Of a stretch of 45,935 nt of DNA, positions 9,416 to 45,935 are shown in pieces. Location: assembly GCA_022566715.1 (NCBI GenBank), contig JADFIH010000008.1, forward strand, positions 1 through 45,935, read 5' to 3'. The notes under the pieces were generated by a model. It searched no databases and was not told the DNA's origin. It saw only the letters and a program-made list of their open reading frames with translations. Both the position numbers and the translations under genes were made by a program. Every line of letters begins with the position of its first letter. Position 1 is the stretch's first letter. The stretch comes from Pseudomonadota bacterium. GTDB lineage: Bacteria > Pseudomonadota > Alphaproteobacteria > SHVP01.

Positions 9416-9489
9416 ACCTCTTCAAGAGGCTGGAGCAGCTTTATCCGTTCAGTGACCGCCGAACGCGTTCCACCTGAACGGATGCTGCG

Positions 9490-12280: not shown

Positions 12281-12284
12281 GGAG

Positions 12285-12350: not shown

Positions 12351-12458
12351 GCGGCCCGCACCGCGCTGTTCATTGCGTTTCCGCTGCCGTCATGGGGCGC
12401 CGTGCGCCGCTCGGCCGGGTGCATCGGTCATTCGCGGCGGAATGCAGGCGGGGCCGCG

Positions 12459-13718: not shown

Positions 13719-13742
13719 CCCGCATCACTCCATCTCAAAACC

Positions 13743-15089
13743 TCAGACATAGGAAACGTGGCCTGGATTTTCCGCGACGGTCTGGGTGGCGATCCGCGCC
13801 TCCCGCCTTTGCCTTTCGCTCAGGGCGATTCCAAAACCCATTACGCTCCAAAACCAAATTCCGCCTTGCGGGCCTTCGAGGTAAACGTCAAACGACATGT
13901 TGACGAGCAAGGCCGTCGTATATGCGAGAATCCAGAGGCTGGCGTTCGCGAAGTGCCGTTGTCCAAGCCGGCGGGCACTCAAGTAGGCTTTGGTCATGGA
14001 GGCGTAGAATGTCACCAGGACCATCACCCACAGCACCAACCCGGGCACGCCCGAACGCGCCAGAATCGTTATGTGTGCGTTGTGGGGGCTGCGAAGGCTT
14101 CCGTTCGTCTGGAACCCGTCGCTATCGGCCAGATTGATCCCGAAGCCTTTGCCGGTCCAGAAGTTGTCGCCAAAAATCGTGTAGTTAATGACCTTGCCCC
14201 ACCAGTCGAGGCGCCATTGAACCGTTCCGGCGAGCCCGCTGTTGCGGGAACTGTCGAAGATGCTGACCGCGTTTTCGACGACCTGTGAGAGGGAGATCGT
14301 ACGATCGAAGATCTGTACGTTGCCCACCACGGTGAACAAAAGAGCGAAGGCCCCGAGGGCGAGACCCGCCCCCAGCAACAGCCGCGGCGACTGCTTGGTT
14401 CGGCGAAACGCGAGAACCAGCAGGATGGCAGCGACGACGGCGAGCATTCCGCCCCGGCTTTTCGCGGCCAAAACCACGAAGGCGACGGACCATGCGCCCC
14501 ACAGCAGCAAATCCCGGCGCTGCGCCAGGGACCGCACCACCGGATGCACTTTGTGAAGGCCAAGGAGCATGAAGGCGCCCGCGCCGGCGATATGAACGCC
14601 GATATCGCCGGGTTTCACGGCCAAGATCGGCACGTCGCCTCCCGGCATGCGTGGAAGGGACTCGCCGAATAACGTGGACAGCAAGAATGCAATGGGCGCC
14701 CAAATCAGGAACCAGGAAAACCAACTTCCGTACCAGTCGAGCACGCGTGCTTCCAGGCCCGACTTCATCAACACGCCGCCCACCAGCAACGCGAATAAGG
14801 CGTAGATCCAGACGGCGCTGTCCCGATAGACCATAAGTCCGAAGGTGCCGACGTCGGGAAGGGCGACCAGCAGGCTCCATCCGACGTAAGCGAGCACCAT
14901 CCAGCTCACGGGCGACCGCAAGACCCTTGTGCTGACGGAACCGGCGGCCGCGACCAACAGTCCGGCCAGCAGCGCGATCTCTCCGACGAACAACGGCGAA
15001 CGCGGAAGTGATGCAAAGCCCCTGTCGAGAAAGGCATACCCCAGAAGCAGGCCCGCCATGATGACGAGGTAGAGTTTGCTGGCGGTCAT
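13743..15089 (-). CDS. O-antigen ligase/polymerase family membrane protein (Wzy-like)
   Basis: Polytopic; 'WRLDWWGKVINYTIFGDNFWTGKGFGINLADSDGFQTNGSLRSPHNAHITILARSGVPGLVLWVMV' Wzy_C-type loop. Confidence 0.88.
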   Translation of the reverse strand: MTASKLYLVIMAGLLLGYAFLDRGFASLPRSPLFVGEIALLAGLLVAAAGSVSTRVLRSPVSWMVLAYVGWSLLVALPDVGTFGLMVYRDSAVWIYALFALLVGGVLMKSGLEARVLDWYGSWFSWFLIWAPIAFLLSTLFGESLPRMPGGDVPILAVKPGDIGVHIAGAGAFMLLGLHKVHPVVRSLAQRRDLLLWGAWSVAFVVLAAKSRGGMLAVVAAILLVLAFRRTKQSPRLLLGAGLALGAFALLFTVVGNVQIFDRTISLSQVVENAVSIFDSSRNSGLAGTVQWRLDWWGKVINYTIFGDNFWTGKGFGINLADSDGFQTNGSLRSPHNAHITILARSGVPGLVLWVMVLVTFYASMTKAYLSARRLGQRHFANASLWILAYTTALLVNMSFDVYLEGPQGGIWFWSVMGFGIALSERQRREARIATQTVAENPGHVSYV

Positions 15090-15147
15090 CCAGGTCTCGC
15101 CGTGTTCGCCGCCGGCATGCGGGCTGATTGCATGCCTAGGATCGGCG

Positions 15148-16449
15148 TCATGGTCGAATTCCCACCGAGGCCTTCACATGCCGGCCGCCCGCCAAGCCCC
15201 GCAGCCACCGAACGAGTCCCAGACTCAGGGCCGAAATCGACACAACGAGAACCAAAAGGAACCCCATCGCCGCGCCGGTCACCCCGAACGCGTGGATAAG
15301 GGGATAGGCGGAGACAAGCGCAACGAAGGCGGAAAGTACCGCGGCCACGAAAATCGGCATCGTGTGCTCAACGGCCTTGAGCGCGGCCTGCAGAACCACC
15401 TGGACAAAAACCAGCACATAAATGACCGCGAACCACCGCACCAAACCCCCAAAACCGACATACGCGTCGCCGAAGACGAGACCCAGCCAGAACTCCGGCG
15501 TCGCGCCAATCGCGATCCCGACAACAATCGTAACCGTGCCCCCGGTCAGCGCGACGCTCTGTATATAACTCAGGAGACCGGCGGCGCCCTGGTGATGAAA
15601 ATGCCAGCTCGCCTTCGCGGGCAGAACGTTCTGCAATCCCAACGCAATAACCTGATTGACCCCCATGAGGTTTTGGGCCGCCCTGAGCGCCCCGACCGCC
15701 GTGGGCCCGAGCGCCGCACCGGCGGCAATCACGTATAGGTAGCCCGCGCTGAACTGGAGGACGGCGTCCGCGGCAAGCCAGCGCGCGAACCGCCAATGCC
15801 GGCGGGTCACTTCGCGAAACGGTAGTTCGGACCAAGTCAATCGCTGAACAAGCAAACCCCCGACCAATATGGCCGCCGACGAGGTCGCGACGACGGCCCA
15901 AAGCGCGCTGCTCGCGGTGAGCGACCCGCTCACGAACAACCAGGCGACAATGCCCACCTGCCCGCAGTAGCTCGTAATATCGACGCTCAGCGCCGCGCCG
16001 CGCCGGCCCAGCAAAAAAAAGTAGCGGCGCAGAAAATCCTTCGCTTGATAGGCCGCGGCGCTGAGCGCGATCGGTATGGTCAATTCTCCGACGCCCCATT
16101 GCGGTGCGAATATCGCGCTTATTGCGACGGCGGCCGCGACGATCACGAAGGTTCCCGCCGCGAAGATCGCCTGCTGAAGAAACACCACCCCAAAATAGGC
16201 AGGCCGAATGCCCTCGTCCTGCTTCGGGCCGATGCTCATCATCGGGGCGCTGATCAGCGCGAATTGAATGCCGGCAAAGAACAGAACGACGAACCAGGCG
16301 AGCGAGTACACGCCAAACGCACCGGGCCCGAGCGCCCGGGCAATGAAAATGACCGTCAGGAAATTAGCACCGCTGACCAGCGCCTGATCGGCGATGGGAA
16401 AGGCCGATGATCCCAGTACCTTTTTCGACATCAATGCCGTCAAGATCAC
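15148..16449 (-). CDS. Lipopolysaccharide/polysaccharide flippase (Wzx-like)
   Basis: 12+ TM pattern, 'QALVSGANFLTVIFIARALGPGAFGVYSLAWFVVLFF' MATE/PST-type N-terminus. Confidence 0.88.
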   Translation of the reverse strand: MILTALMSKKVLGSSAFPIADQALVSGANFLTVIFIARALGPGAFGVYSLAWFVVLFFAGIQFALISAPMMSIGPKQDEGIRPAYFGVVFLQQAIFAAGTFVIVAAAVAISAIFAPQWGVGELTIPIALSAAAYQAKDFLRRYFFLLGRRGAALSVDITSYCGQVGIVAWLFVSGSLTASSALWAVVATSSAAILVGGLLVQRLTWSELPFREVTRRHWRFARWLAADAVLQFSAGYLYVIAAGAALGPTAVGALRAAQNLMGVNQVIALGLQNVLPAKASWHFHHQGAAGLLSYIQSVALTGGTVTIVVGIAIGATPEFWLGLVFGDAYVGFGGLVRWFAVIYVLVFVQVVLQAALKAVEHTMPIFVAAVLSAFVALVSAYPLIHAFGVTGAAMGFLLVLVVSISALSLGLVRWLRGLAGGRHVKASVGIRP

Positions 16450-17765
16450 TTGGCCACCCGCGCCGCTTGTCCGTCCCGAACCACCCGGGCGTAAAGCTCC
16501 TCAACTGTTTGCAGTCTCGAATCCCAGCCGAACAGCTTTTGCGCCGCCGCCATGCCATCCTTGCTCGCGCGGGCAAGCGGCGCCCGCCGCGCGATGAACC
16601 CGAGCAAGGCCGCCCGGATTTCCTCGACGGTCCGCTTGCGCGACCGCGCGGGAACGAGGAACCCGCCGCCTTCACGCAGCAGGACCGCGGGCCCCGCACG
16701 GTCCAGGGCCAACACCGGCAGCCCCAACGCCAAAGCCTCGCAGATCGCCGAGCCCCCACTATCCCGGAGGCTTGGAAAGACGAGCAAATGAGCCTTCGAC
16801 ATCCAGCGCAGCGCTTCGGTCCGCGGCACCGGACCGGTAAACTCGACCACGTCCTCCAGCCCAAGGGTCTTGGTTCGCCGCTCCAGATACGCCTTGCCCG
16901 GGCCGCCGCCGACCAGCACAAAGTGAATTCGCCGCCGCGACGCGGGATCGATCCCGGCAAGCGCCTCGAGTATCAGGGTATGCGCCCTCATCCGGACGAA
17001 CTCGCCGACTCCTAGTATCAACAAGGGGTCGCCCGACGGTTCGTAACGGCCGCGGGGCTCGGCCGAGACCGCGTTGGCCGGAAGCAAGACAAAATTGCCC
17101 TTTGGATGAATCCGTTTCAGGCCCCTCAACGTGTCCTGGTTCGAAACCAGGATCGCGCTGGAGTACCGCAATGTCCGGCGTACGCCCGGCAGCCAGGGCG
17201 AAATCCAGTTGGACATCTGACGCGTCGCCTCGAAGGCGAATCTCCAGCCCACAAGCGGAAACAGCCGCAGCGGAATACTTTCGAGACCCGCGACCGGCCC
17301 CCAAATGAACGGAGGATTTCCCGGTCTCGCGAGCCGCCCGTGAAACCGGAAGGAATGGAAGGTGAGCTGGTGAACGACGTCGAATCGCCGTTGGCGCAAA
17401 AGGCGCTCGCCAAGGCGCGCCGCCGCCCTTTGCCAGAACCAGTAGTAGAGGTACCAGCCGGGCCATCCCATCCGGCTCAAAAAGCGGAATTTCGATTCGT
17501 CGATACCGATCAGGTGCAGGTTCTTGGGACGCAGGGACTCGCTATGCCGGACGCCTTGCTCCCAGGCAATGACCGTGACGCGATGCTTGGCGGACAGGCG
17601 GCTGACCCATTCCCAACCGAGAAGATGTTCGCCTCCCAACGCCGGACTGCAGGCGTAAGCAATGATCAGGACGCGCAACGGACGTGCGCCGCCATCCGCC
17701 TCGGGCCGGGCGCGGGCAGAGCCGTCCTCGGCCGCAACCGGCGTAATCCGCTCCTGAACCGACAT
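16446..17765 (-). CDS. Glycosyltransferase (GT4/GT1-like)
   Basis: 'RVLIIAYACSPALGGEHLLGWEWVSRLSAKHRVTVIA', 'HLLVFPSLRDSGGSAICEALALGLPVLALDRAGPAVLL'; 4-bp overlap with the upstream flippase gene. Confidence 0.9.
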   Translation of the reverse strand: MSVQERITPVAAEDGSARARPEADGGARPLRVLIIAYACSPALGGEHLLGWEWVSRLSAKHRVTVIAWEQGVRHSESLRPKNLHLIGIDESKFRFLSRMGWPGWYLYYWFWQRAAARLGERLLRQRRFDVVHQLTFHSFRFHGRLARPGNPPFIWGPVAGLESIPLRLFPLVGWRFAFEATRQMSNWISPWLPGVRRTLRYSSAILVSNQDTLRGLKRIHPKGNFVLLPANAVSAEPRGRYEPSGDPLLILGVGEFVRMRAHTLILEALAGIDPASRRRIHFVLVGGGPGKAYLERRTKTLGLEDVVEFTGPVPRTEALRWMSKAHLLVFPSLRDSGGSAICEALALGLPVLALDRAGPAVLLREGGGFLVPARSRKRTVEEIRAALLGFIARRAPLARASKDGMAAAQKLFGWDSRLQTVEELYARVVRDGQAARVAK

Positions 17766-17768
17766 CGC

Positions 17769-19079
17769 CTAGCCGGCCGCCGCCGCGGCAAGAACGGGGG
17801 CCGCCGCCCCGGCAGCGCCCCAGTCTTGCGCAAGGTTGAAGGCTGAAAGGATGTTGTCTTCGATCGAGCAGTAGGCCCAGGTGCCGTAACGGCCCAGGAC
17901 AAACACATTGCGCCGGGCCAGACTCTCGATGGCTTTGGCCGCCGCTTCTTGCGACGCCTCGCTCACGTGCACATAAGCCGGATCCATCAGGACGCTGGCC
18001 CAACTCACCAGCTCATGATCCACGATCACGCCGCAGCGCCGTAGATCCGCGATCGTGCGTTCGAACAGGGCGTCGAGTTTCATGGGGGCGCCGGACGGCA
18101 GGGCGATTTCCACGTAGAGGCTCATCCTGTCCTGACCCAGGATGTTGTCGTAGTGCCCCACCCGGTAGAAAACCTGTTCCGGATCGGGGTAATAGACCCA
18201 GTGATCGGACCGGGGCGACGGGCGGTCGAACCCCAGGTTGAAAACCAGCACCTTGTTCGCCGTAAACACGCTCTCGTCGAAGGTGATCCCGCAGAGCCGC
18301 AACAGACGCGGAAGCGGCACCGAGGAAACCAGCCTGTCGTACCGCAAGGTCTCGCCCCCGGCCCGCACGGTTTGTTCGCCGAGATCGATCCCGCCGCATT
18401 CGACGCCCAAATGAATGACGCCGCTCGGCACATAGGACGCCAGGGCGTCGACGAACCCTTTCGCGCCCCTCCGGTGATAGCGGAAGGTATCGTTGTAGGT
18501 CGGCTGGGTTGCGCGGCCCGTCAACACCTCGAGAAGCTTCGAGAACTCGACGTGCGGGAAAAACCTTCCCATCGCGGCGGGGTCGAGCCGTTCCGCCGAC
18601 GTCGCGTATTGCTTTTCCGTGTAAGGAATCAGAAACAACTCCGCTATGGACGCACCGTAGCGGGCGACGAGCATTTCCCGGAAGTTCCGGTAGCGGCCCG
18701 TGTCTTGCCGCTGCGCCTCGTGCATGTCGGCGAGACAGCGCAGCAAGTCCGGCTGGGGAAGCTGGTGAATGTTGAACTGGAACGGATAATCGATGTAGGT
18801 GTCGCGGAAATACACTCGGGTCCGTTTCTTGGACGTGACGATATCTTCCGCATTCATTCGGGCTTCAAGGTAGTCGGCCACCCACTTCTCGCGGAAATGG
18901 AAGAAGTGGCCCGAATAGTCCCAAGTGAATCCGTCCTGATAGATGGTCCGGCAATATCCACCGAGCTCATCTTCCTTTTCGAGCAAAAGGCAATCGAAAC
19001 GATCGGCTAGGAACCCGGCGACGGAGAGGCCCGTAACGCCGCCGCCGATGATCAGCACCTTGTCCTTCACCGGACTCAC
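17769..19079 (-). CDS. FAD-dependent amine oxidase/protoporphyrinogen-oxidase-like protein
   Basis: 'KVLIIGGGVTGLSVAGFLADRFDCLLLEKEDELGGYCRTIYQDGFTWDYSGHFFHFR'. GTG start at 19079 overlaps the preceding stop as GTGA, so track start 19238 is probably too early. Confidence 0.88.
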   Translation of the reverse strand: MSPVKDKVLIIGGGVTGLSVAGFLADRFDCLLLEKEDELGGYCRTIYQDGFTWDYSGHFFHFREKWVADYLEARMNAEDIVTSKKRTRVYFRDTYIDYPFQFNIHQLPQPDLLRCLADMHEAQRQDTGRYRNFREMLVARYGASIAELFLIPYTEKQYATSAERLDPAAMGRFFPHVEFSKLLEVLTGRATQPTYNDTFRYHRRGAKGFVDALASYVPSGVIHLGVECGGIDLGEQTVRAGGETLRYDRLVSSVPLPRLLRLCGITFDESVFTANKVLVFNLGFDRPSPRSDHWVYYPDPEQVFYRVGHYDNILGQDRMSLYVEIALPSGAPMKLDALFERTIADLRRCGVIVDHELVSWASVLMDPAYVHVSEASQEAAAKAIESLARRNVFVLGRYGTWAYCSIEDNILSAFNLAQDWGAAGAAAPVLAAAAAG

Positions 19080-19882
19080 CGGCCGCCGACAAGCGCCTGA
19101 TCGCGCAACCGGGTATACGCACCTTCCGGCAGCACGGTTTTGACGCCTTGTTTGATTCGGTACGGCCAAGCGCGCGCCCGGCCGTCGAGGATGCGGCGGA
19201 AGGCGGCGAGATCGCGGTGGCCAAACATCGGCCAACACCGCACCTTTCCTTCAAGGGGAAAGCCCGCATAGCCCCATTCCATCGTCCGCATGACCTTGTA
19301 ACCGGCGATCTCGGCGGCGATGAAACAGTCCAGCGAATAGTCGCCGTTGGGAAAAGCGAACCACGCGACCTCCGCGCCGATCAAGTCTTCCAGCGCGGCT
19401 TTGGACCGTTCGCATTCCTTGCGCCGCTGCTCGAAACTGAGCTTCGTGAGACGCCGGTGCGACATGGAGTGGGACCCAATCGTGTGTCCGCTCTCGGCCA
19501 ACCGGCGAACGTCCGCGCGGCCAAGGTAACCCTTGGATTCGAGGCGATCGACGACGATAAAGAAGACCGCCGGCAACCCCTGACCCGCCAACACCTCCGC
19601 CCCGTCCAGGTGATCGGACGTACCGTCATCGAAGCTTAGGCAAACGTGCGTGCCGTCCATCATTTGGATGAGAGGACCGCTCACGCTGCGTACGCGCGTC
19701 GAAACCTCTTCCATTTGCCGCTCGAAATCGGCAAGGGACACATCGTAATGAACGGTGCGCACGCCCGGCGCAACGAGGCGGTGATAGGTTAGGAATGCGA
19801 CAGCGCCCTGCTTGACCAACATTCGTCCTTTCACCCGCGCGTTTCGCGGCCGCCATAAGTGCGGCGGCGGCGCGTTTTGCAC
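19076..19882 (-). CDS. Polysaccharide deacetylase family protein
   Basis: 'GTHVCLSFDDGTSDHLDGAEVLAGQGLPAVFFIVVDRL', 'HTIGSHSMSHRRLTKLS' NodB-fold motifs. Confidence 0.9.
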   Translation of the reverse strand: MQNAPPPHLWRPRNARVKGRMLVKQGAVAFLTYHRLVAPGVRTVHYDVSLADFERQMEEVSTRVRSVSGPLIQMMDGTHVCLSFDDGTSDHLDGAEVLAGQGLPAVFFIVVDRLESKGYLGRADVRRLAESGHTIGSHSMSHRRLTKLSFEQRRKECERSKAALEDLIGAEVAWFAFPNGDYSLDCFIAAEIAGYKVMRTMEWGYAGFPLEGKVRCWPMFGHRDLAAFRRILDGRARAWPYRIKQGVKTVLPEGAYTRLRDQALVGGR

Positions 19883-20270
19883 CGCGTGTTTTGGCCCGGT
19901 GTTTTAGTGCGAGTGCCTTGGTATCACAGACGCGCCGCCCACGCGGCCCGGCGCCGCGGATCACTTGGGCTGACGGCCAATATCTCTTGGCCGCAGCAAA
20001 CCGGTGTTTCCAAGAGACCGTTTCTTGTCCTGCGGCGACGATCGCGCGCGCCCGTTCGATACGTCCGACATCGATTCGCCGCAACTGTTTGTGCAGCGCC
20101 GCGGGCTCGGATTCCAAACCGAATTAATTGAGTCACTACAGATACAGTTGCGCCGCGCCGCGTAACGCAGTGTCACGAAATAATTACATTGCAACGGCGA
20201 GGCGCCTTACGGCGTTCGATGATTCGGCGGCGATCCCAACCATTTCAAGACGTTGCGCGCACGCGTTCCA

Positions 20271-20286
20271 TGGCACGGCGCTTGCT
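20271..20286 (+). promoter_or_regulatory. Sigma54-type -24/-12 promoter
   Basis: TGGCACGGCGCTTGCT, full match to TGGCACG-N4-TTGCW, about 215 bp upstream of the sugar transferase start. Confidence 0.75.
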
Positions 20287-20501
20287 CCCGCAGTCGTACC
20301 GGCGGATTTCGATTGGGGCGTTTTCGCGACCGGTTCTTCTTGGGGAGAACGCACTGCCCTTTTTTTATCGCGCCGGTTCAGTTGATCAAGACATCACGAC
20401 TTTCGTTCGCCCCGGCGTCGTTTCCCCCCGACGTCGTTTCCTAAAGAATTGGGAGCACGGCGCGCGGCGCCGCGACGAATTTTGTTCCCGTTGGAGTTCG
20501 C

Positions 20502-21179
20502 ATGAGCACGGATAGCACCCCTTCGCACCCCGCCGGCCACGCAATCGCCCCGCGCACGGCGAACGTCGGGGCTGTAAGATTCCTTTTCGAATGGCCGGTC
20601 GCGCTGCTCCTATTCGCATTATCGCTTACGCCGATCGCGGTGCTGGCCATTTGCATCAAGCTTATCGACCGTGGCCCGGCCTTCTATCTGCAAGAGCGTG
20701 TCGGTCTCAATGGGAAACCGTTCAAGATCATCAAGCTGCGAACCATGCGGACCAACGCCGTGGAGCTCCTCGACGATTATTTGGAGTCCAACCCAGAAGA
20801 ACGGGAGGAATGGCTGCGTCATTTCAAACTTCGGTCCGATCCGCGCATCATTCCGAGGATCGGCCTGTTTCTGCGCAAATACAGCCTCGACGAAATGCCG
20901 CAGCTTTGGAACGTACTGCGCGGGGACATGGGTCTTGTGGGGCCGCGTCCATTTCCGGCCTATCACCTCGCCGGTTTCGACGCCGACTTTCGCGCTCTTC
21001 GAGAGTCCGTGCGGCCGGGAATAACGGGGCTGTGGCAAGTCGAGGTGCGGAGCGACGGCGATCTCTTGCTCCAAAAGGAGCTCGACTCGCGCTACATCTT
21101 GACTCAGTCCCTATGGACGGACCTCGACCTCTTGTTCCGGACGGTGTGGGTCGTGTTCAGCGCCCGGGGCGCACGCTAG
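20502..21179 (+). CDS. Undecaprenyl-phosphate sugar-1-phosphate transferase (ExoY/WcaJ C-terminal-type)
   Basis: 'GPAFYLQERVGLNGKPFKIIKLRTMRTNA', 'KYSLDEMPQLWNVLRGDMGLVGPRPFPAYHLAGFD', 'VRPGITGLWQVEVRSDGD'. Confidence 0.94.
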   Translation: MSTDSTPSHPAGHAIAPRTANVGAVRFLFEWPVALLLFALSLTPIAVLAICIKLIDRGPAFYLQERVGLNGKPFKIIKLRTMRTNAVELLDDYLESNPEEREEWLRHFKLRSDPRIIPRIGLFLRKYSLDEMPQLWNVLRGDMGLVGPRPFPAYHLAGFDADFRALRESVRPGITGLWQVEVRSDGDLLLQKELDSRYILTQSLWTDLDLLFRTVWVVFSARGAR

Positions 21180-22269: not shown

Positions 22270-23973
22270 GTGGCTTTGATGCCTGACCAGATTTTATTGG
22301 ACGATGCACAGACCCTTTTCGAAGCCGGCAAGGTCGAAGCCGCCGTCGTCATCTACGATAAACTGGCCAGCCTGGGTTCGGCGGAGGCCGCGCTGCGCCT
22401 GTCTTGGCTCTACGGCTCGGGCCAGCACGACGACGCTCTCGAACGCATCACCGGGGTCTCAAGCCGCCGTTTCTTTGACGATTCGCCCATGGGCATCGTG
22501 GTCCTCGATTCGGCCGGGCTCATCATTGACGCCAACGCCGCTTTCCGGCGCATGGTGGGGGAAGAGAGCGACCTGACGGGAGGGCGCCGCCTCTTAGACT
22601 TTGTGGGTAGCGAGGACGGCGAAAAACTCGGCGCTCGCTTGACCGCGCCCGGCGCGGAAACGGCCCCGCTCAGCATCCGCTTTGAGACGGGGCAACGGGC
22701 CGAGGCCTATGTTGGCGGCCCCGGGGGCGGCCCTGGCGGCGATACCGCCGGATCGGTCGTTTACCTGCTTTCAGCGAAAGAGCGGGCGCAGAACAACGAC
22801 GAGCTCGCCCAGTCCAAGAAACTCCAAGCCGTCGGTCAGCTGGCGGGTGGAATCGCCCACGACTTTTCCAATCTGCTGACGACGGTGATCGGCTATTGCG
22901 ATCTTTTGCTGTTGCGCCATGGCGACGACGAGGAAACCAGCGCCGACATCATGCTGATCAAGCGCAGCGCCAACCGCGCCGCCAACCTCGTGCGCCAGTT
23001 GCTTGCGTTTTCACGCCAGCAACGCATCCAACCGAAAATCCTGGCCCTGACCGAGGTTCTGAGCGAGACCTCGGAGCTCATCAGGCGGCTGATCGGGGAT
23101 GGGGTCGAACTCAAGATCATTCATGGACGTGACCTCGCGCCGATCCTCGTTGACCAGGGCCAGCTCGAGCTCGTCATCATCAACATCGTGCTGAACGCCC
23201 GCGACGGCATGCCCGACGGTGGGACCCTGACCATGCGGACGGACAACGCCCGACTTGGCGCGCCCCTGCGCCACCGCGACCAAACCCTGCCTCCGGGCGA
23301 GTACGTGGTTCTTTCCATCACCGCCGGCGGTCTCTACATGGAGCCCGACCAGCTCGATGAGCTGTTTGAGCCCTTGATTATGTCCAAGGGCGTGGGTCTG
23401 GGCTTTGGCCTGTCGATTGTCCGCGAGATCGTCGAGCAAATGGGCGGAACCATCATCGCTTCGAGTAGGGAGGACGACGGGACCACGTTCGAAATCTTCT
23501 TGCCGCGCTTCCAGGAAAGCCGGGCCGTTGAGGCCGCACCCGAGCCCGCGGCGGACGCGGAGACGGAGGCGGCGGAGCCCGAGGAGGCGGAACCCGCCGC
23601 GACGATCCTTCTCGTCGAGGACGAAGAGGCGGTGCGCCGGTTCTCTGTGCGGGCCTTGGAAAATGCCGGCTACCGGGTGGTAAGCGCCGAGCATGGCGAA
23701 GCGGCCCTGGAAGTCCTCCAGCAGCAGCCCGGCGGGGTCGACCTCTTGATCACCGATGTCGTCATGCCCCGAATGGACGGAGTCGAACTGATCAAGGCGG
23801 TGCGCCGCATCTACCCGGGCATGAAAGCCATCATGATTTCGGGCTATGCCGAAGACGTGTTCCGCAAGAACCTGGACCGCGAATTGGACGCCACGTTCGT
23901 GCCCAAACCCTTCAGCCTGAAGGACCTTATCGAGGCCGTGGAGGACAAACTCGGTACGGACGGCAAGGAATAG
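22270..23973 (+). CDS. CckA-like hybrid histidine kinase (PAS-HisKA-HATPase-REC) with degenerate G1 box
   Basis: 'GGIAHDFSNLLTTVIGYCDLLLLRHGDDEETSADIMLIKRSANRAANLVRQLLAFSRQQ' strongly CckA-like; C-terminal REC 'ILLVEDEEAVRRFSVRALENAGYRVVSAEHGEAAL..LLITDVVMPRMDGVELI..KPFSLKDL'. Confidence 0.92.
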   Translation: MALMPDQILLDDAQTLFEAGKVEAAVVIYDKLASLGSAEAALRLSWLYGSGQHDDALERITGVSSRRFFDDSPMGIVVLDSAGLIIDANAAFRRMVGEESDLTGGRRLLDFVGSEDGEKLGARLTAPGAETAPLSIRFETGQRAEAYVGGPGGGPGGDTAGSVVYLLSAKERAQNNDELAQSKKLQAVGQLAGGIAHDFSNLLTTVIGYCDLLLLRHGDDEETSADIMLIKRSANRAANLVRQLLAFSRQQRIQPKILALTEVLSETSELIRRLIGDGVELKIIHGRDLAPILVDQGQLELVIINIVLNARDGMPDGGTLTMRTDNARLGAPLRHRDQTLPPGEYVVLSITAGGLYMEPDQLDELFEPLIMSKGVGLGFGLSIVREIVEQMGGTIIASSREDDGTTFEIFLPRFQESRAVEAAPEPAADAETEAAEPEEAEPAATILLVEDEEAVRRFSVRALENAGYRVVSAEHGEAALEVLQQQPGGVDLLITDVVMPRMDGVELIKAVRRIYPGMKAIMISGYAEDVFRKNLDRELDATFVPKPFSLKDLIEAVEDKLGTDGKE

Positions 23974-24058
23974 CGGGCCAAAGGCGCGTTAACCCTGTTG
24001 GCCGAAGCGGAGCGTAACGCTTAGCCCGGGTTCTCCCCGAATTACCCCTAGGTATTCG

Positions 24059-27000
24059 TTGCCGCCCCCGCTTCGGGTGGATAATCGTGGTCCAAGTGGA
24101 TTTTCTTGTATGAGCTCGCGTCGGCGGCGGAACGTTGCCTCGGGCGCGGGCGTGGCCGAAACTGATTTCGGTGCTGAGTTTGGCATGAGCGAACAGCGAC
24201 CCCATACCCCAAGCGTCTGGCTCTGGCCACTCACCCTGGCCGCCGTGGTCACGGCGCTGCTTGCCCTCATCGTCTGGCGTCCAGCCTCGTCGGCCCTCGA
24301 GCGGGAGATTTCGGCGCGGGAACGCGAACGGGTCGAAGATCAGCTCGCCATCATCGGAACCAACCTCCAGCAATCCTTGCGCAGCCGGGTCTCGATCCTG
24401 GAAGGGATCGCGGCCTTCGTCGCATCCGAGAGCACACTCGACGAGGGCCGGTCCATTCGTGACACACGGGAGCGGTTTGTGGCCTACGCCGGAAACTTGC
24501 CGCTGGAGAAGGCGGACATCCTGCAAGCCTGGATTGCCCGCAGCGCCATGGTCACCGCCGTCGCGCCGCTCACGGGGAACGAGGATCTCCTGGGGCGGCG
24601 GCGCCATCCGGCGGACGGCGGCATCGCGCCCGGCGAAACCCGCGTGGAGGTCAGCGACATCGCGGCGCCCGGCGGCGAGGCCCTCGTCACGGCCGTGATC
24701 GAACTGGCCGGCGCCGGTCCACCCAGTGTGCAGGTCGGAATCGATTTCTACGCGCACGCCCTGATCGAGGAGGCGAATCTTGGCCGATACGGCCGGAATA
24801 TCGTCGTGTCCTTGCGCGATGGCGGGGGCAGGAGCGTATTTCCCCTGGGCCGGGGCGCCCTCGTCGAACCCGCGATCTATCCCATCGGCGTTTCTCGCGG
24901 GTTTTGGGAACTGGCGGCGGTTCCCGCCGGCGGCTGGAACGATGCAGCGGACAGGTATGTGCCGATATTCCGCGGCGGAGGTTGGGCGGCTTCGATGCTG
25001 TTGGGCTTGCTCGTCCTTTACACCCGTTCGACCCGCGCCCGGCGCCGCCGCCGCACCCACCGCCTGGAGGCCGATATCCTCGAAACCGAGGCCCGTTTCA
25101 ATGAGATCGCCTCTTCGATCCCAGGCGTCATCTTCCGGCTGGTCCGCAAGCCGAGCGGGGCCATCCAGTATTCCTATCTGAGCGAAGGCGCACGCGACGT
25201 CTTTGGCGTCGAGTCCGCGCAAGCGGCGGCGGATTCGTCATGGATTCGGCGCACGATCCATCCCGACGACCGGACCAGGTTCGACGACATGTTGGGCGCC
25301 TCCGCGGCGCGCCGGACGCCCCTGACTTTCGAGTTCCGTGTCGTCTCCAACGGTGGGGAAACAAAGTGGCTGCGGTCCATTTCCCTCCCGCGGCTGTGCC
25401 CGAACGGCGACGTCATCTGGACCGGTCATATCGCGGACATCACCGACGCGAGGCACCGCCTCGATCTCCTGGAAGAAAGCGAGGCGAGGTTCCGCGCGGC
25501 CTTCGACGCCCATCCGGACGGCATCGCGCTCCATGACCACGATGGCGGCCTCGTCGCATCGAACGACGCCGCGCAGGGAATGTTCGGGAACGCCATTCCA
25601 CCCCTCGCCAAGCCCGGGCCGGAGTCCGGACAAAAACCCGATGCGGCCGCCACCGGTTTGGCGAGGATCCGCCGGCCCGACGGGGCCAGCGCCTGGGTCC
25701 TGACGGATAGCCGGCCCATTTTCCGGACGGGCGACGCAAAACCCGCCGGCTATCTTCAAACCTTCACCGACGTTTCCGACCCCCACGATCGCGAGGCCGG
25801 CCTCATCCGGGACGGGCGGGTCTATCGGGATGCGGTCGATTCGGCCCTGGACGTTCTATGGCGGACCGACGCCGATCTGCGCTTCACGGCAATGGACGAA
25901 ACCGCGAGCGGCGAACCCCACCCCATTGCCGGGGCGCTCATCGGGACGCGGCTTCTCGACCTGCATGACGCGGACGCCGAAGACGGGACGGACGAAATTC
26001 ACCGGCAAATCGGCTCCCACGAACCGTTCCGCAACCTTCGATACGACTTCGACGAACCTGGGGCCGACACAGGGACCGACCGTGGGGCCGACCCAGGTCC
26101 AGAAGCCGGGGCCGGACGCGTTTTCCGCTTCAGTGGAACGGCGGCGCTGGACCAATCCGGGATCTTTCTCGGCTACCATGGCGCGGCGCGGGAGGAAGCC
26201 ATCGCGGCCGGTCTTCCGGAATTGGCGCCGGAGCAGGCCGATCTGCTGGCGGGCTTGACCCGGGCCGCCGACGACCTGCCCGTGGGAATAATCTTTTTCG
26301 ATCGAGGCGATCAATTCGTATTCCGCAACCGCGCTTTCGATCTCGCCGAACCTCACACCGACCTGATCCGCCCCGGTATTTCTCCGGCGGGGTTCCAGAG
26401 TGCGCTCCGCGAGCGCGGCGTCACCCCGCCAGTGCCGGCAATGCCGACAACCGCTGACGGCGAGGACATACCGGAAAACGAGGCCATCCCGGAAGACGGG
26501 ACCACGCCCACGGCGCAGGCCGTCGAGGTGGATGCGTTCTTCGAGGGTTGGATCGGGCCCCATTGGCTGCAAATCCGCCGCCACGACCTCGAGGGCGACG
26601 GAACCCTCTTCGTGGTCTCGGACCTCACCGACCTCAAGGACGAAGAGGATCATGCGGCGCAGCGGCGGATGGTCGACGCCGCCTTCGAAGCGGCCTGCCG
26701 GATTGCCGCCGACCTGAACCGCGCGCTGGCCGATAGTCTGGGCGACCTGACGCGGCTCAAGGAGGGCCGTGGCGCCGGCGGCGACATCATCGGCCGTGCC
26801 CTCGCGTCGAGCGAGCGCGGCGCCGCGCTCGGCATTCGGCTTTTGTCGCTTCTCCAAGGCCGGACGTCGCGCCCGGTGCAGGCCGATCCATCGGCCCCGG
26901 CATCCGACACCGGCGACATGCCGCGCGCCGCCCTTCAGGATCAGGATCGCGCCGAGGTCGAAGAGCCCACGGCCGAAGCCCCGGCCCGACGCACGGCAAT

Positions 27001-27343
27001 CGTGCTGGAACCCGATCCCGATGTCCGCCGAGTGACGGCGAGTCTCCTGCGCCTGCTGGATTACGAGGTCATGGACTCGGGAGATGCCGAAGACGCCATC
27101 GCATACGGCGACGAAGCGCCGGCCGATCTTCTCGTCACCGAATGCAGGCTGCCGGGGGCTTGGACGGGCGAGACATTGGCGGCACGGTTGCGGCGCACGG
27201 CGCCGGGTCTGCGGGTTGTCCTGACCTGCGATACCGATTTGGGCGCGTCCGGGGCAAGCTTCGGCGAAGCGGCGATTCTGCTGAAGCCTTTCGGTCTCGA
27301 CGAGCTCTCCGCGCTTGTGAAATGGCGAGACGCCAGCGAATGA
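24059..27343 (+). CDS. CHASE/PAS multi-domain pseudo-hybrid sensor with degenerate receiver
   Basis: TM 'WLWPLTLAAVVTALLALIVW', CHASE-like periplasmic region, PAS 'FNEIASSIPGVIFRLVRKPSGAIQYSYLSEGARDVFGV', degenerate DHp, C-terminal REC-like. True start may be ATG 24110 or 24185. Confidence 0.85.
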   Translation: MPPPLRVDNRGPSGFSCMSSRRRRNVASGAGVAETDFGAEFGMSEQRPHTPSVWLWPLTLAAVVTALLALIVWRPASSALEREISARERERVEDQLAIIGTNLQQSLRSRVSILEGIAAFVASESTLDEGRSIRDTRERFVAYAGNLPLEKADILQAWIARSAMVTAVAPLTGNEDLLGRRRHPADGGIAPGETRVEVSDIAAPGGEALVTAVIELAGAGPPSVQVGIDFYAHALIEEANLGRYGRNIVVSLRDGGGRSVFPLGRGALVEPAIYPIGVSRGFWELAAVPAGGWNDAADRYVPIFRGGGWAASMLLGLLVLYTRSTRARRRRRTHRLEADILETEARFNEIASSIPGVIFRLVRKPSGAIQYSYLSEGARDVFGVESAQAAADSSWIRRTIHPDDRTRFDDMLGASAARRTPLTFEFRVVSNGGETKWLRSISLPRLCPNGDVIWTGHIADITDARHRLDLLEESEARFRAAFDAHPDGIALHDHDGGLVASNDAAQGMFGNAIPPLAKPGPESGQKPDAAATGLARIRRPDGASAWVLTDSRPIFRTGDAKPAGYLQTFTDVSDPHDREAGLIRDGRVYRDAVDSALDVLWRTDADLRFTAMDETASGEPHPIAGALIGTRLLDLHDADAEDGTDEIHRQIGSHEPFRNLRYDFDEPGADTGTDRGADPGPEAGAGRVFRFSGTAALDQSGIFLGYHGAAREEAIAAGLPELAPEQADLLAGLTRAADDLPVGIIFFDRGDQFVFRNRAFDLAEPHTDLIRPGISPAGFQSALRERGVTPPVPAMPTTADGEDIPENEAIPEDGTTPTAQAVEVDAFFEGWIGPHWLQIRRHDLEGDGTLFVVSDLTDLKDEEDHAAQRRMVDAAFEAACRIAADLNRALADSLGDLTRLKEGRGAGGDIIGRALASSERGAALGIRLLSLLQGRTSRPVQADPSAPASDTGDMPRAALQDQDRAEVEEPTAEAPARRTAIVLEPDPDVRRVTASLLRLLDYEVMDSGDAEDAIAYGDEAPADLLVTECRLPGAWTGETLAARLRRTAPGLRVVLTCDTDLGASGASFGEAAILLKPFGLDELSALVKWRDASE

Positions 27344-39956: not shown

Positions 39957-41222
39957 TTAAAGGCGCGCTCCGCGACGGGAGTCGATGCTGTATTTTTCCA
40001 TCAAGCGGTAGAGCGTCACGCGGGACACGCCCAGGTGCTCGGCTGTCCGCTTGATGTTGCGGCTGTGCAACTGCAAGGCGCGGCGCAGCAGATCCTTCTC
40101 CATCTCGCGCCGGGCCTCGTCAAGTGAGGGCAACTCGGAGGAATCCCTTCTGACCAGTTCCGGCGTGAAGACCTTGCCTGATCTGCCGCTGTTTCCGCCA
40201 CCGGGCGCGGTTACGGGGGCGGGACGGACCTCGGGCGGCAATGCGCTCGGCAGACCGAGATCATCGGCGGAGATTCTGTCGCCGTCCGTCATGACGACGG
40301 CCCGGCGGATCGTCGCGATGAGCTCGCGGACATTCCCGGGCCAATAATAAGAACGCAGCAAACGCTGCGCGTCGTCATCCAGACCGCTGACCGGACGGCC
40401 CATTTCGTCGGCGAACAAGCGTAGAAAGTAGGTCGACAGCAAATCGATGTCCTTGCCGCGCTCGCGCAGCGGCGGCAACTCCAAACGCAGCACGTTGAGC
40501 CGGTAAAACAGGTCGCCCCGGAACTTGCCGTCCGCCACGGCCTGGCGCAGGTCGGCGTTGGTCGCCGCAATGACCCGGACGTCCACGTCGATGTGCTGGC
40601 GGCTTCCGACCCTGTCGATCGTCCCCTCTTGCAGGAAGCGCAGAAGATGCGCTTGTAACTCGAGCGGCAGGTCGCCGATCTCGTCGAGCAGGACGGTGCC
40701 GCCCGCCGCGGACTCGATCCGCCCGATGTGCCGTTGGTCGGCGCCGGTGAAGGCGCCCTTCTCGTGCCCGAACAACTCGGACGCGATCAGTTGCGGCGGC
40801 AAGGCGCCACAGTTGATCGGGACAAACGGACCCGCGGAATAGGACGAACGCTCGTGGATCGCAAGCGCCGCGAGCTCCTTGCCCGTGCCGCTTTCCCCGC
40901 TCAGCAGGATCGGCGCCGCGGTTACGGCGATCTTCCGGATGGTGTCGTAGACATGCTGCATCGCCGGGTCGGAGCCAACCATGTGCGGCTCATTTGGATC
41001 GCCGCGTGCCGCGGCCCCCGGTGCGGCTTTGGCGCCGCCTTTATTCGGCGGTTGCGCCATCTTGCGCCGCACGTTCTCCAGAAGCTTGGAATCGCTTGCG
41101 GCTCCGTCCAAAACGAGTTGCGCAAGCTGCGCGGCGCCGAGCCCGATCAGGGACTCCTTGGTGATGACCCTCGCCTTCGGACTGGAGGTTTCCACGGTCA
41201 ACTTCGGAGGGACATCACTCAT
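39957..41222 (-). CDS. Sigma54-dependent enhancer-binding protein (AAA+, Fis HTH; no receiver domain)
   Basis: 'LLSGESGTGKELAALAIHERS', 'ELFGHEKGAFTGA', 'GGTVLLDEIGDLPLELQAHLLRFLQEG', C-terminal 'NIKRTAEHLGVSRVTLYRLMEKYSI'. Confidence 0.95.
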   Translation of the reverse strand: MSDVPPKLTVETSSPKARVITKESLIGLGAAQLAQLVLDGAASDSKLLENVRRKMAQPPNKGGAKAAPGAAARGDPNEPHMVGSDPAMQHVYDTIRKIAVTAAPILLSGESGTGKELAALAIHERSSYSAGPFVPINCGALPPQLIASELFGHEKGAFTGADQRHIGRIESAAGGTVLLDEIGDLPLELQAHLLRFLQEGTIDRVGSRQHIDVDVRVIAATNADLRQAVADGKFRGDLFYRLNVLRLELPPLRERGKDIDLLSTYFLRLFADEMGRPVSGLDDDAQRLLRSYYWPGNVRELIATIRRAVVMTDGDRISADDLGLPSALPPEVRPAPVTAPGGGNSGRSGKVFTPELVRRDSSELPSLDEARREMEKDLLRRALQLHSRNIKRTAEHLGVSRVTLYRLMEKYSIDSRRGARL

Positions 41223-41755
41223 GCAGCGCCCTCAATGTTGTAAAAAGACAACGGTACGCGCGTTTTTCGGTTCGCGAGACCTCCGGAACAACCAAGATTC
41301 ACCTTAAGACCGGCCCTCTCTAACCACCCGTAGCAACAGGCGGTACCTCCGATACTCCATGTAGTGGAATTTAGACGCTCGGTGCGCACCAAGCCATGAC
41401 GCATACGGATACTCGCCAAGGGGTGTCGAGGCATATCAAAGGTGGCAGCGGGGCCGGAAGCGCTTTGATTCATCGTTAAGGCCCGGTACGCTTGCCCGGT
41501 ACGCTTGGTTGTGCCCTGGCTCGAGGCGATTCGGACACGGGAGGTACCGACGACGCCCAGGGCCGGGAACCTAGGCAATTGAAGTTAATTTTGTTAGGAT
41601 TCAACATATTGGAGCGTTTTCCCGGCGCCGGTCCCGGCGTAAATTTTTGGGGCGGGAACTCCCGTTTTGCGGGATTAAGCGCGGGGAGCGCATAAAGGGC
41701 GGGCCCTGGACCTTCATGTCCGGTGGAAATCTCGCCTCGTAGCAGGGGTCGACAG

Positions 41756-43027
41756 ATGATCAAGCCATTCAAAGCCGCCGCCGTTGCGGGACTGGGGCTC
41801 GCCGCCGCGGTCCTCATGAGCGGCGTGGCCTTCGCGGGAGACGGCGGCGCGAATACGGGTGAGGAACTGCACACGCTGCGGACGCTCATTCAGGAACAGC
41901 GTCTACAGATCGAGGAGCAACAGCGCGCCCTGACGGCGCAGGACCGGCGGCTGGAGCTGCTGGAGGCCCAGTTCATCATGCCGGTCATCGAGCCACGGGT
42001 GCAGACGGTCGCCGCGCCGGGCGGACCGCCGAAGTTCCTGCGGCGGCGCGATTATTCCCTAGTGCAGGACAACCAGGACCGGGTCGGCGAAGCGCCGGAG
42101 GACCGGCGGCCGCAGGTTGCGATCGTCCAGCAAAACAGCGGCGTCCTGACGCCCGCCGGCACGCTCGTCTTCGAGCCCAGCATCAGTTTCTCGCATACGG
42201 ACGTGAACCGCTTCGTCGTGGGCGGCGTGGCCATTCTCGACACCGTCCTGATCGGCGTGTTCGAGGTGACCAAAGCCGACCGCGACACCATCACGTCGTC
42301 CTTCGGCCTCCGCTATGGCATCAGCGACCGGATCGAGGTTGAAGCGAGCGTCCCCTACATCGCGCGCAACGACACCACCACCAACACCGTAGTCTCGGGC
42401 GGAGGAACGGCGGCGCAGACAAGCCTGCGGTCCGACGGCATGGGCGACATCGAGTTCGCGGGGCACGTTCAATTGAGCAGCGGCGGTGGCGGCCTGCCCT
42501 TCGTGGTGGGCAATTTGCGCTTCAAGTCCAATAGCGGCAAGGGGCCCTTCGAGGTCAAGCGCAACTCGGCGGGAACCGAGGAGGAGCTGCCGCTCGGGTC
42601 CGGCTTCTGGGCCATCGAACCCAGCCTCACATTTCTCTTGCCGTCCGATCCCGTGGTGTTCTTCGGCAACATCGGATACCTGTGGAACATCGCCCGCGAC
42701 ATCAATAAGACCATCGGCGCGACGCTCATCGGTGAGGTCAACCCGGGCAATGCCGTCCGGGTCGGGTTCGGCATGGGCACGGCGCTGAATGAGCGCGTAT
42801 CCATGTCGCTGGGCTATCAGCACGACTTCATCGCCGAGACGAAAACGGTGGCCGATGGCGTGAAGAACGATTCGGAGCGGCTGTCCGTCGGCACCTTCTC
42901 GGTTGGCGTGAATTTCAAGATCAGGGAGGACGTGTCGGTCAATGTCGGCGTCGCGATCGGCGTGACCGAGGACGCACCCGACGTGGGAATCAGCCTTCGC
43001 GTCCCGACCTCCTTCCAGATCCGTTAG
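41756..43027 (+). CDS. Outer-membrane beta-barrel with N-terminal coiled coil (FapF-like / 'transporter')
   Basis: Signal peptide 'MIKPFKAAAVAGLGLAAAVLMSGVAFA', coiled coil 'EELHTLRTLIQEQRLQIEEQQRALTAQDRRLELLEAQ', then repeated amphipathic strands; track start 41723 is probably too early. Confidence 0.82.
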   Translation: MIKPFKAAAVAGLGLAAAVLMSGVAFAGDGGANTGEELHTLRTLIQEQRLQIEEQQRALTAQDRRLELLEAQFIMPVIEPRVQTVAAPGGPPKFLRRRDYSLVQDNQDRVGEAPEDRRPQVAIVQQNSGVLTPAGTLVFEPSISFSHTDVNRFVVGGVAILDTVLIGVFEVTKADRDTITSSFGLRYGISDRIEVEASVPYIARNDTTTNTVVSGGGTAAQTSLRSDGMGDIEFAGHVQLSSGGGGLPFVVGNLRFKSNSGKGPFEVKRNSAGTEEELPLGSGFWAIEPSLTFLLPSDPVVFFGNIGYLWNIARDINKTIGATLIGEVNPGNAVRVGFGMGTALNERVSMSLGYQHDFIAETKTVADGVKNDSERLSVGTFSVGVNFKIREDVSVNVGVAIGVTEDAPDVGISLRVPTSFQIR

Positions 43028-43045
43028 GGGCACCGTAGAGTTAAA

Positions 43046-43077
43046 GGGAGTCCGGGGATCCGGGCTCCCTTTTTTTT
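43046..43077 (+). terminator. Rho-independent terminator downstream of the FapF-like gene
   Basis: GGGAGTCCGG-ggat-CCGGGCTCCC followed by T8. Confidence 0.85.
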
Positions 43078-43112
43078 CGTGCCTCGACGCGAAGCGAATG
43101 GTCTTTGACCTT

Positions 43113-43296
43113 TTAGGGCCTTTCCGGTTGGTCTGGAATCGCCCGAGGCTGCTGGAATCGCCCAAGGCCGCGAGGCGGCCCGCCGGTTATCCGGCGCGCC
43201 CGCGCAAACGCGGACCGCAGGTCCGCAACCGTGAGCGATGAAAACTAGAGTGGTTCCGGCCCCAAGTCTTCCGGCCAAGCCGGACCTACTCTAGCG
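43113..43296 (+). repeat. Dispersed structured repeat, copy D (long form)
   Basis: Same layout as copy A, including duplicated 'ctggaatcgccc' and 'ccccaagtcttccgg' segments. Confidence 0.87.
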
Positions 43297-43392
43297 TCCC
43301 GCCGGCACCTCAAATCGAGACCACTCCCGGCCGCGCCCCGGAGAGAGAGCGTCCAAGGCTCGCCCAGGAGAGAGGCTCCTGGACTCGCTTGC

Positions 43393-43977
43393 CTAGAATA
43401 GGCTCGACAGTCCGATTTGCGCCCCAATGGAACTCGACAGAATATTCGCCGAGAAGCTGTTCAAGGCGGCCTGAAGCGTCGCTGAGATGGTGATGTCGAA
43501 TTGCGCCGTATTCGTGATGTTCAGGTTATTTCCCGAGGTCTCGACGATCGATTTGAAAATATTTTCATTTAGCTGATGCACGATCGTCGTGGATTCGGTG
43601 GTCAGGGTCGTTTCCACGCCGTCGTCCGTCACCACGACCGTCTGTCCGTCGTCGGGGTCCGGGCCGGGAATGAACGTCGTGCTGTTGGTCTCGACGCCGC
43701 CCTCCTGATTGAAGCTGAGCATGGAAACGAGGCCGATATCGTTCACAAAGCTTTCGAAAATGATGTCGATGGCGATGTCGAAATCGAACCCGTTGAAGCT
43801 AAACCCGCCGCGTAGTTCGGCGAGCTCGGGATTGGTCAGCGCCTCATAAGGGATAAAAGGGTCGATCCCCGCGTCGGCGCTCCCCGGCAACTGGCTGCCG
43901 AGAGCCAGAACCCCCGCGGCCGCCACCGCCGCGATGGTGGATGCTCTCGCCCGCCGTGAAATCTTGTGACTAAACAT
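43393..43977 (-). CDS. Exported Fap-like substrate with double-glycine leader motif
   Basis: Signal peptide, then 'LTNPELAELRGG|FSFNG' and an N/S/T-rich beta-prone C-terminus. Confidence 0.75.
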   Translation of the reverse strand: MFSHKISRRARASTIAAVAAAGVLALGSQLPGSADAGIDPFIPYEALTNPELAELRGGFSFNGFDFDIAIDIIFESFVNDIGLVSMLSFNQEGGVETNSTTFIPGPDPDDGQTVVVTDDGVETTLTTESTTIVHQLNENIFKSIVETSGNNLNITNTAQFDITISATLQAALNSFSANILSSSIGAQIGLSSLF

Positions 43978-44034
43978 CTCTCTCCCCTATGTGGTCTGGC
44001 CTCAAGGCCTGGTGGTGTTGCGGTGACCCCATTC

Positions 44035-44742
44035 CTAAAATTCGTTTTGAGCTGGTAGACGGAGCTGGAAGGAAGCCAGTCCCTGCCGGCGGAGACCTTG
44101 CTGGGTCGGCGCCCGGGTGCGGGCCAGCCACTCGTCCGAAACGTTGAAGTTCGACTGGGCAAGCTGGGTTTCGTCGCGGATGACGAAGATGATCCCTTCC
44201 CAGATCGCCTCGAACTCCGCCTGTGTGTACACGGTCATGCCGAAGGCCGGATCGCCAACCAGCACGTCGCCGCCATCGAAGCCCTTGATCACCACGAAGT
44301 GCTTGTAGCCACCGGTATCGATGAGGGCGATGCCGGGGATGCCCGCCTCCGACAGTTCATCGAGGGAAATACGGAATCCGTCGGCGCGAACGTCGACGGT
44401 CTCGAGATAATTCTTCATGTCGAGAAGCGAAAATCCGGATTTGCGAATCGCGTCCTGGTCGCCCACTTCGAACATTTTCTCGAAGGTCTTCGCCTCGGTC
44501 GTCGGCCGCGCGTAGTGGAAGCTGAGCAGGGTGGCCAAGGCGGCCGAGCCGCAACTGTAGTCGAACTGCTGCTGGATCACCGATTTGAATTTGGCTTCCC
44601 GGATGCTGATGACCGGAATCGAAAGAAGCCCTCCCGCGATGCGGACACTGGTTGAACCCGCCTCCGCCGGAAGACCATGCACCGCCGCCCCAACCGCCAT
44701 AACGACGGCAAGCGCTGCCGCGCCGCCCCGCACTACCGACAT
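44035..44742 (-). CDS. Exported stand-alone C39-like cysteine peptidase (FapD-like)
   Basis: Signal peptide; 'VIQQQFDYSCGSAALATLLSFHY' catalytic Cys; 'YKHFVVIKGFDGGDVLVGDPAFG' His and Asp; no ABC transporter domains. Confidence 0.88.
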   Translation of the reverse strand: MSVVRGGAAALAVVMAVGAAVHGLPAEAGSTSVRIAGGLLSIPVISIREAKFKSVIQQQFDYSCGSAALATLLSFHYARPTTEAKTFEKMFEVGDQDAIRKSGFSLLDMKNYLETVDVRADGFRISLDELSEAGIPGIALIDTGGYKHFVVIKGFDGGDVLVGDPAFGMTVYTQAEFEAIWEGIIFVIRDETQLAQSNFNVSDEWLARTRAPTQQGLRRQGLASFQLRLPAQNEF

Positions 44743-44815
44743 ATCTTTTTCCTTCCTCGGTTTGCCACCTCTGATCCCTGTTGGGAGGCTTTCGCCCCGC
44801 CGCCCCGAAACGTCC

Positions 44816-45232
44816 CTATTGGAAGTAAATATTAAACTGCACCACGGTGCTTACGTTGTTGAGGTTCCCCGACACCTTCGAGATCACGAACATGCCGCGG
44901 TTGTTCAGGAAGGTGTCGCCATAGATCTTCCCCGTGACCAAGGTCGCGCTGCTCCCTCCGTCACCGGCCTCGATGATAAGCGGGCTGTGGTCGTTGTCCT
45001 GGTCGCTATCGGCGTAATTCTTTTGGGTAAAGTTGTTGGAATCCTTGTTAACCACGTTGTGGTCGCCGTTGACGCTCACGCCCAGGCCCGCCAAAGCGCC
45101 GAGCTCCTCGGTTTCGATAATCCGCCACTTGGACAGGGGATCGTTTATGTCCGACTCGCCAGAAACCGCCGCACCGGTACCGATCCCGAGTGCCGCGGCC
45201 AAAATGACTGCAAACTTGATTTTTTCCCGCAT
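44816..45232 (-). CDS. Exported N/D-rich small protein, probable Fap-like substrate
   Basis: Signal peptide 'MREKIKFAVILAAALGIGTGAAVSG', 'IIETEELGALAGLGVSVNGDHNVVNKDSNNFTQKNY', ends 'NNVSTVVQFNIYFQ'. Confidence 0.72.
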   Translation of the reverse strand: MREKIKFAVILAAALGIGTGAAVSGESDINDPLSKWRIIETEELGALAGLGVSVNGDHNVVNKDSNNFTQKNYADSDQDNDHSPLIIEAGDGGSSATLVTGKIYGDTFLNNRGMFVISKVSGNLNNVSTVVQFNIYFQ

Positions 45233-45279
45233 GACGCCGCCCTTGCCAATTTCAGAAAAATTTCCCTTCCGGAGAAAGG

Positions 45280-45307
45280 AACCGGTGGGCCAAAAGGCCC
45301 ACCGGTT
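45280..45307 (-). terminator. Intergenic perfect hairpin, possible terminator/attenuator
   Basis: AACCGGTGGGCC-aaaa-GGCCCACCGGTT 12-bp perfect stem just 3' of the Gly-rich gene; weak U-tract. Confidence 0.5.
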
Positions 45308-45319
45308 TAAGCGTAGAGA

Positions 45320-45935
45320 CTAGTTGAAGCTGGCGTTGGCGTTCACGCTCACCGAGATGTTCTGGTTCACGTTGATGCCAGACGACATGGAGATGTTGGT
45401 GATGCCCCGAACGTTGGTGAGGTTCACCGAACCAACAGCACCCGTGCCCAACCAAGCGAACACCTGGTTGCTGCCGCCGCCGTTACCACCAGTGGCCGTC
45501 GCATGCTGCTTGGCCTTGTTGCTCTGGTCGTTGTCAGCATTGCCACCATTGGCGGTCGCGTCCTGGTCGGCAAGGTTGATGGCCTTGCCGTCGCCACCAT
45601 CGGCGGTCGCTGCGCCGTCCTGGTCGTTGGCCGCGTCGCCACCCTTGGCATCGGCATGGCCGTCCTGGTCGTTGGCCGCGTCGCCACCGTTAGCCCGAGC
45701 GCCGGACTGGTCGGGGTTTTGCTCCGCATCCAGGTTGCCCGCGCTGGCATCGGCCATTCCGCCGGTGCCGCCGGTGCCGCCGGTCGCGCCGGAGCCACCG
45801 TCGCCACCGCGGCCGCCGTGGCCGCCTTCGCTGGCAGCGGCGAGGGTGATGTCCGAGATGGACATGCTGGCGCTGTCGTTGGCCTCGAGGCTAACCTCGG
45901 CGGAGCCACCCTTGATGTCGTCGACATCGTTGGAC
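45320..45935 (-). CDS. Gly/Asn/Asp-rich repetitive exported protein (truncated by window end)
   Basis: Frame stays open past the track ATG to the window edge: 'SNDVDDIKGGSAEVSLEANDSASMSISDITLAAASEGG...'; repeats 'GGDAANDQDG', C-terminal 'GINVNQNISVSVNANASFN'. Confidence 0.75.
   Translation of the reverse strand, partial: SNDVDDIKGGSAEVSLEANDSASMSISDITLAAASEGGHGGRGGDGGSGATGGTGGTGGMADASAGNLDAEQNPDQSGARANGGDAANDQDGHADAKGGDAANDQDGAATADGGDGKAINLADQDATANGGNADNDQSNKAKQHATATGGNGGGSNQVFAWLGTGAVGSVNLTNVRGITNISMSSGINVNQNISVSVNANASFN

Follow-up and report, generated by a model that had tools for sequence, protein, structure and literature searches.

What kind of system is encoded at the end of this alphaproteobacterial contig, and what would its exported peptidase cleave? 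The stretch analysed here (hereafter the window) spans 45,935 nucleotides. A preliminary description had read its last genes as a diverged Fap-like functional-amyloid secretion module with non-homologous or rapidly evolving subunits, possibly joined with a nearby EPS locus in one matrix-building island. All open reading frames of that description were found again at the same positions; the two smaller cargo candidates, A and B, are exported, and the third, C, is rich in N, G and D (Table 1). The window ends with its contig at 45935, and C is open at the 5′ end.

Table 1. Position and basis of assignment of the features of the locus within the window
Feature	Position	Strand	Basis
Sigma54 activator (AAA+ and Fis-type HTH, no receiver domain)	39957..41222	-	Pfam Sigma54_activat 7e-68
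F, FapF-like outer-membrane barrel	41756..43027	+	NCBIfam, crystal-sequence match, AlphaFold2 and Foldseek
Coiled coil of F	about 41855-41974	+	
Barrel of F	about 42161-43018	+	
A, exported 194-aa protein, presumed main D substrate	43393..43977	-	Directly after D, Sec signal, leader
Putative double-glycine leader of A, residues 47-58, LTNPELAELRGG	43804..43839	-	Sequence, family profile, shuffle control
D, FapD-type exported C39 cysteine peptidase	44035..44742	-	NCBIfam FapD, Pfam Peptidase_C39
B, exported 138-aa protein, likely minor subunit, one C-terminal Fap-like repeat	44816..45232	-	Before D, B family alignment
Putative degenerate leader of B, residues 39-50, IETEELGALAGL	45083..45118	-	Sequence; weak in the window copy
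C, N/G/D-rich repeat protein, likely major subunit, 5′ end missing	45320..45934	-	Before B; long repeat proteins there in relatives

Two proteins of the locus are homologous to components of the Pseudomonas Fap system. The NCBIfam FapF model matches F with an E-value of 4.1e-51 (174 bits, short of the equivalog cut-off of 700 bits), and the sequence of the crystallised FapF does so with an E-value of 1.4e-34. The AlphaFold2 model of F bears out the predicted coiled coil and beta-barrel, comprising a Sec signal, a helix at residues 34-73, a disordered linker at 78-125 and the barrel. Its best Foldseek matches are the FapF structures 5o67 and 5o65 (E 2.7e-22, TM 0.82 by target length) and not an unrelated porin. 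By sequence and fold, F is a FapF-type barrel with a periplasmic coiled coil; its trimeric state is assigned by homology. The gammaproteobacterial Halomonas-type F proteins (~355 aa, e.g. L054 9480-10553) seemingly lack the N-terminal coiled coil of the alphaproteobacterial ones. Profile matches likewise agree with the reading of D as an exported C39 peptidase (NCBIfam FapD, E 2.9e-46, 157 bits as against a cut-off of 330 bits; Pfam Peptidase_C39, E 5e-21). Residues Q58, C64, H148 and D164 are intact in D and invariant across the 101 loci described below, and D has the catalytic Cys, His and Asp of a periplasmic, FapD-type C39 peptidase.

Close relatives within the family lack the locus, so searches were extended to the class, the phylum and the whole collection. 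FapD-type loci, selected by D alone, were gathered by profile from genomes of the same class and from 84,980 species genomes, giving 101 loci including the window. Gene calling used a basic ORF caller, with export judged by a heuristic test for signal peptides, and some calls (L044, L081 and L113) are wrong or doubtful. The gene group recurs in about 100 loci of Alpha-, Beta-, Gamma- and Deltaproteobacteria and is, for that reason, not a chance assembly. A FapF-like barrel is present in 94 of the 101 loci (within 5 kb in 85), and the usual order is C (a long repeat protein), B (~115-145 aa), D and A (~150-290 aa), with F adjoining A and frequently encoded on the other strand, which is also its orientation in the window. 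The genes are thus kept together in relatives, as a Fap-type module would predict. By position, C and B would be the counterparts of FapB and FapC, and A that of FapE.

The cargo proteins resemble known subunits less directly. Searches of Pfam and NCBIfam returned no family match for A, B or C of the window, and the FapA, FapB, FapC and FapE models do not recognise its subunits, in line with the divergence expected of them; the FapB and FapC models also find nothing among the C and B proteins of relatives. A C-terminal repeat like GIGTVIQNTGNNVAIQNATSVNV is nevertheless common to B and, in several relatives, to C. The B and C repeats are QN-rich, of the GxxxVxQNxGNNxxxQ type, and the C-position proteins of L118, L036 and L039 carry 4, 9 and 29 copies, respectively. 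Profile comparison also aligns the A family with B at the C-terminal repeat (E 2.7e-11 over 29 columns). In the window itself the repeat copy of B is borderline and the terminal Fap repeat is not significant alone in A and C, which, together with the missing start of C, counts against the secretion model set out below. The open frame upstream of B in L039 (10004-18001, minus strand) is far longer than any other C, with 2665 aa and ~29 QQNNG-type repeats.

The low complexity of C, its variability between relatives and the failure of the FapB and FapC models with the window and the C proteins tested could also mean that what is exported is a set of soluble or adhesin-like surface proteins instead of an amyloid fibre. 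We consider this doubtful, given that the QN-rich repeats of B and C are common to Fap and that a FapE-type partner is present, as in Fap. Fibre formation, which we infer from the family resemblance of the subunits, is retained in the model set out below.

Evidence on the substrate of D comes from the N-terminus of A. In the window, the Sec signal of A is followed by LTNPELAELRGG, with a predicted cut before F59. Neither this segment nor its degenerate counterpart in B figures in the preliminary description. The double-glycine leader consensus of bacteriocin precursors is LSxxELxxIxGG, with GG or GA at the cut; the segment in A and the profile in its relatives are of this C39 leader type. When the first exported ORF downstream of D was sampled whatever its sequence (n=79), R[GA][GKR] occurred within the first 70 mature residues of 72 proteins, as against 9.6 expected from shuffling, and a fuller leader pattern in 53 as against 0.47. 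Among the 72, position -12 is Leu, Val or Ile in 60, -8 is Glu in 39, -7 is Leu or Met in 70, -1 is Gly in 70 and +1 is Phe in 57. The strict leader consensus is also commoner in exported proteins near D (28/255) than in those far from it (3/153, p 7e-4). The AlphaFold2 model of A (mean pLDDT 70) comprises a short helix at residues 49-55 just before GG, a beta domain and a C-terminal helix, and a fold search with it against the PDB gave no significant match.

Because the A proteins are related to one another, these motif counts are not independent events, and related leaders ahead of dissimilar mature parts would be the more telling sign. Such leaders occur in B proteins, where they end in RGR, RGK, RGG or RGL among relatives, and in small proteins encoded next to distant D-F pairs (such as LSDTQMDSVVGG and LNDSQMDNVTAGA) that match no NCBIfam family. 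The leader of B in the window is weak, with GL in place of GG, and this counts against the model. The string SNDVDDIKGG at the cut end of C was considered as a leader and dropped, since the true N-terminus is missing and the C proteins of relatives have no clear leader. In same-class genomes (L046-L052), distant D-F pairs lie beside small Sec-exported proteins with leader-like segments (such as LSDTQMDSVVGG, LNAEQMDSVAAGG and LSAAQMDEVTAGA), which may represent a wider class of cargo with two leaders.

The same type of leader is found in FapE. Canonical FapE proteins carry an A-type leader ending in G-R or G-K (ELKDAEMAELRGRY), and in those above the curated cut-off the Sec signal is soon followed by ELKDAEMAELRG[R]YVMPG or ELKDQELAQLRG[K]YVMPG. 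When the A family and FapE were compared as profiles, the alignment had an E-value of 4.4e-8 and was restricted to the leader and the start of the mature part; the A rows were preselected for the motif, making this alignment supportive rather than independent. The curated FapE model, which is independent of that preselection, matches the A protein of L039 over the leader segment (E 1e-4) and does not match A of the window.

These leaders bear on what is reported for Pseudomonas, where secretion requires the FapD cysteine, no canonical C39 site occurs in the Fap proteins and, in mass spectrometry, FapE alone was missing its N-terminus (Rouse et al., PMC5557850). A G-R or G-K leader in FapE, as predicted here, fits all three statements. 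In 2017-2018 the substrate and cut site of FapD were reported as unknown and canonical C39 sites as absent from Fap proteins (PMC5557850, PMC6173800), while a 2025 review gives FapF and the N-terminus of FapE as the presumed targets of FapD processing (PMC12822426). The altered leader would explain this supposed want of a canonical target, and it is the canonical GG site kept in window-type systems that makes the G-R/G-K form recognisable. We found no open-access paper giving the FapD site; most subscription papers lay outside the search, so a prior description is possible.

The ELxxLRG[G/R/K]-F/Y segment could have another role, as a docking or folding element that binds, for example, the FapF coiled coil, with D acting as a chaperone or cutting the linker of F. 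GG motifs are present in the FapF linker, for which processing has been proposed, and some C39 domains are chaperones only. The predicted P1 residue varies (G, R, K, A or L), which counts against a C39 cleavage model; such variation is unusual for C39 enzymes. Yet the profile is that of a C39 leader (positions -12, -8, -7, -4, -2 and -1) and recurs ahead of different mature parts, the catalytic residues of D are invariant and the FapD cysteine is required in Pseudomonas, and we judge a docking role unlikely. A chance neighbourhood of unrelated genes, with an ordinary porin as the barrel and low-complexity noise as the small proteins, is contradicted by synteny conserved in about 100 loci and by the specific FapF match of the barrel, so that even with low-complexity exported proteins being common and C of the window incomplete we give it next to no weight.

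Most likely, the locus specifies a secretion system of diverged Fap type that builds a matrix fibre at the cell surface, in which D would remove a periplasmic leader and F would serve export. C, B and A would cross the inner membrane by Sec. In the periplasm, D would recognise the leader that directly follows the Sec site of A (E/D-L-x-x-L-R-G-G|F), as well as the less strict form present in B, and cut it off. Assembly of the mature proteins would follow outside the cell, after their passage through the F barrel. In this scheme C is probably the bulk subunit, B probably a minor or nucleating subunit and A probably an anchor or starter like FapE, with secretion licensed by the maturation of A.

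The cargo leader probably indicates what FapD cuts more generally. On balance we favour, with some reserve, the view that FapD-family enzymes are general periplasmic double-glycine proteases, that a tandem Sec and C39 leader marks cargo of FapF-type barrels in many Proteobacteria, and that Pseudomonas FapE is cut at ELKDxEMAELRG-R/K-Y. If true, this would settle the substrate and site of FapD. Amyloid secretion in Pseudomonas cannot do without FapD. The proposal for its target is specific and testable, and the leader data suggest a more widespread mode of secretion for substrates with two leaders in succession.

Compared with Pseudomonas fapABCDEF, the locus has a homologous C39 peptidase and barrel, the same order of subunits, D, FapE-position protein and F, a leader segment in the FapE-position protein and, in relatives, QN-rich repeats in the subunits. 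Unlike that operon, the window has no match to FapB or FapC in B and C, and the FapA model found none among the proteins of the window, in which the contig is cut; FapA is often absent (PMC6173800). Further differences are that A has only the leader and start in common with FapE, that the leader ends in GG rather than GR or GK, that a sigma54 activator lies beside the operon and that F is often on the opposite strand. We would count D and F as Fap members by homology, though both score below the equivalog cut-offs. Position and leader make A the equivalent of FapE, and membership is not recognised for B or C. Canonical-type fap genes seem to be duplicated in tandem in L159 (3000-12700), with two FapE genes and paired FapC-like and FapB-like genes.

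Co-localised fapD and fapF have been reported outside fap operons in five further phyla (PMC6173800). These resemble the present loci in having D and F as a unit, but that account deals with the pair only, the cargo leaders and the C-B-D-A order being described here. Acinetobacter Fil has a related peptidase (FilB, 2.6e-35) and barrel (FilC, 9e-24), but both scores are under the curated cut-offs (122 against 475 bits and 85 against 630 bits) and the Fap models score higher; small exported proteins near some FilB-type genes have an LSGITGQ variant and not GG. Examples beside FilB-type peptidases are L170 733-1410 and L175 969-1412, with MDDAALSGITGQDGI right after the Sec signal, which may be a GQ variant of the double-glycine leader. 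Peptidase-containing ABC transporters (PCAT) of bacteriocin export have the same C39 fold and leader consensus, whereas window-type D is free-standing, Sec-exported and predicted to be periplasmic, with no ABC transporter and with substrates that have a Sec signal ahead of the leader.

The sigma54 activator already noted beside the locus probably regulates it: 50 of 101 loci have a homologue (E<1e-60) no more than 7 kb from D, and sigma54-like sites are enriched in relatives 1.5-3.5 kb upstream of D, ahead of C (15 against 3.4 expected, p 1e-6). Upstream of F in the window there is no such site within one mismatch. Of the preliminary description, the diverged Fap-type module stands, given the homology of F and D to FapF and FapD and an order that parallels fapB/C-D-E-F, but the proposed EPS-amyloid matrix island does not: homologues of the EPS genes of the window occur near only 5 of 100 related loci, and the adjacency looks local and not conserved. 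The EPS locus itself (4222-21179) encodes a ManC-type enzyme, Wzz, a Wza-type export protein, a BBP2_2 barrel and an initiating sugar transferase, and two large PAS/receiver sensor proteins, one of them a hybrid histidine kinase, lie between EPS genes at 22270-27343.
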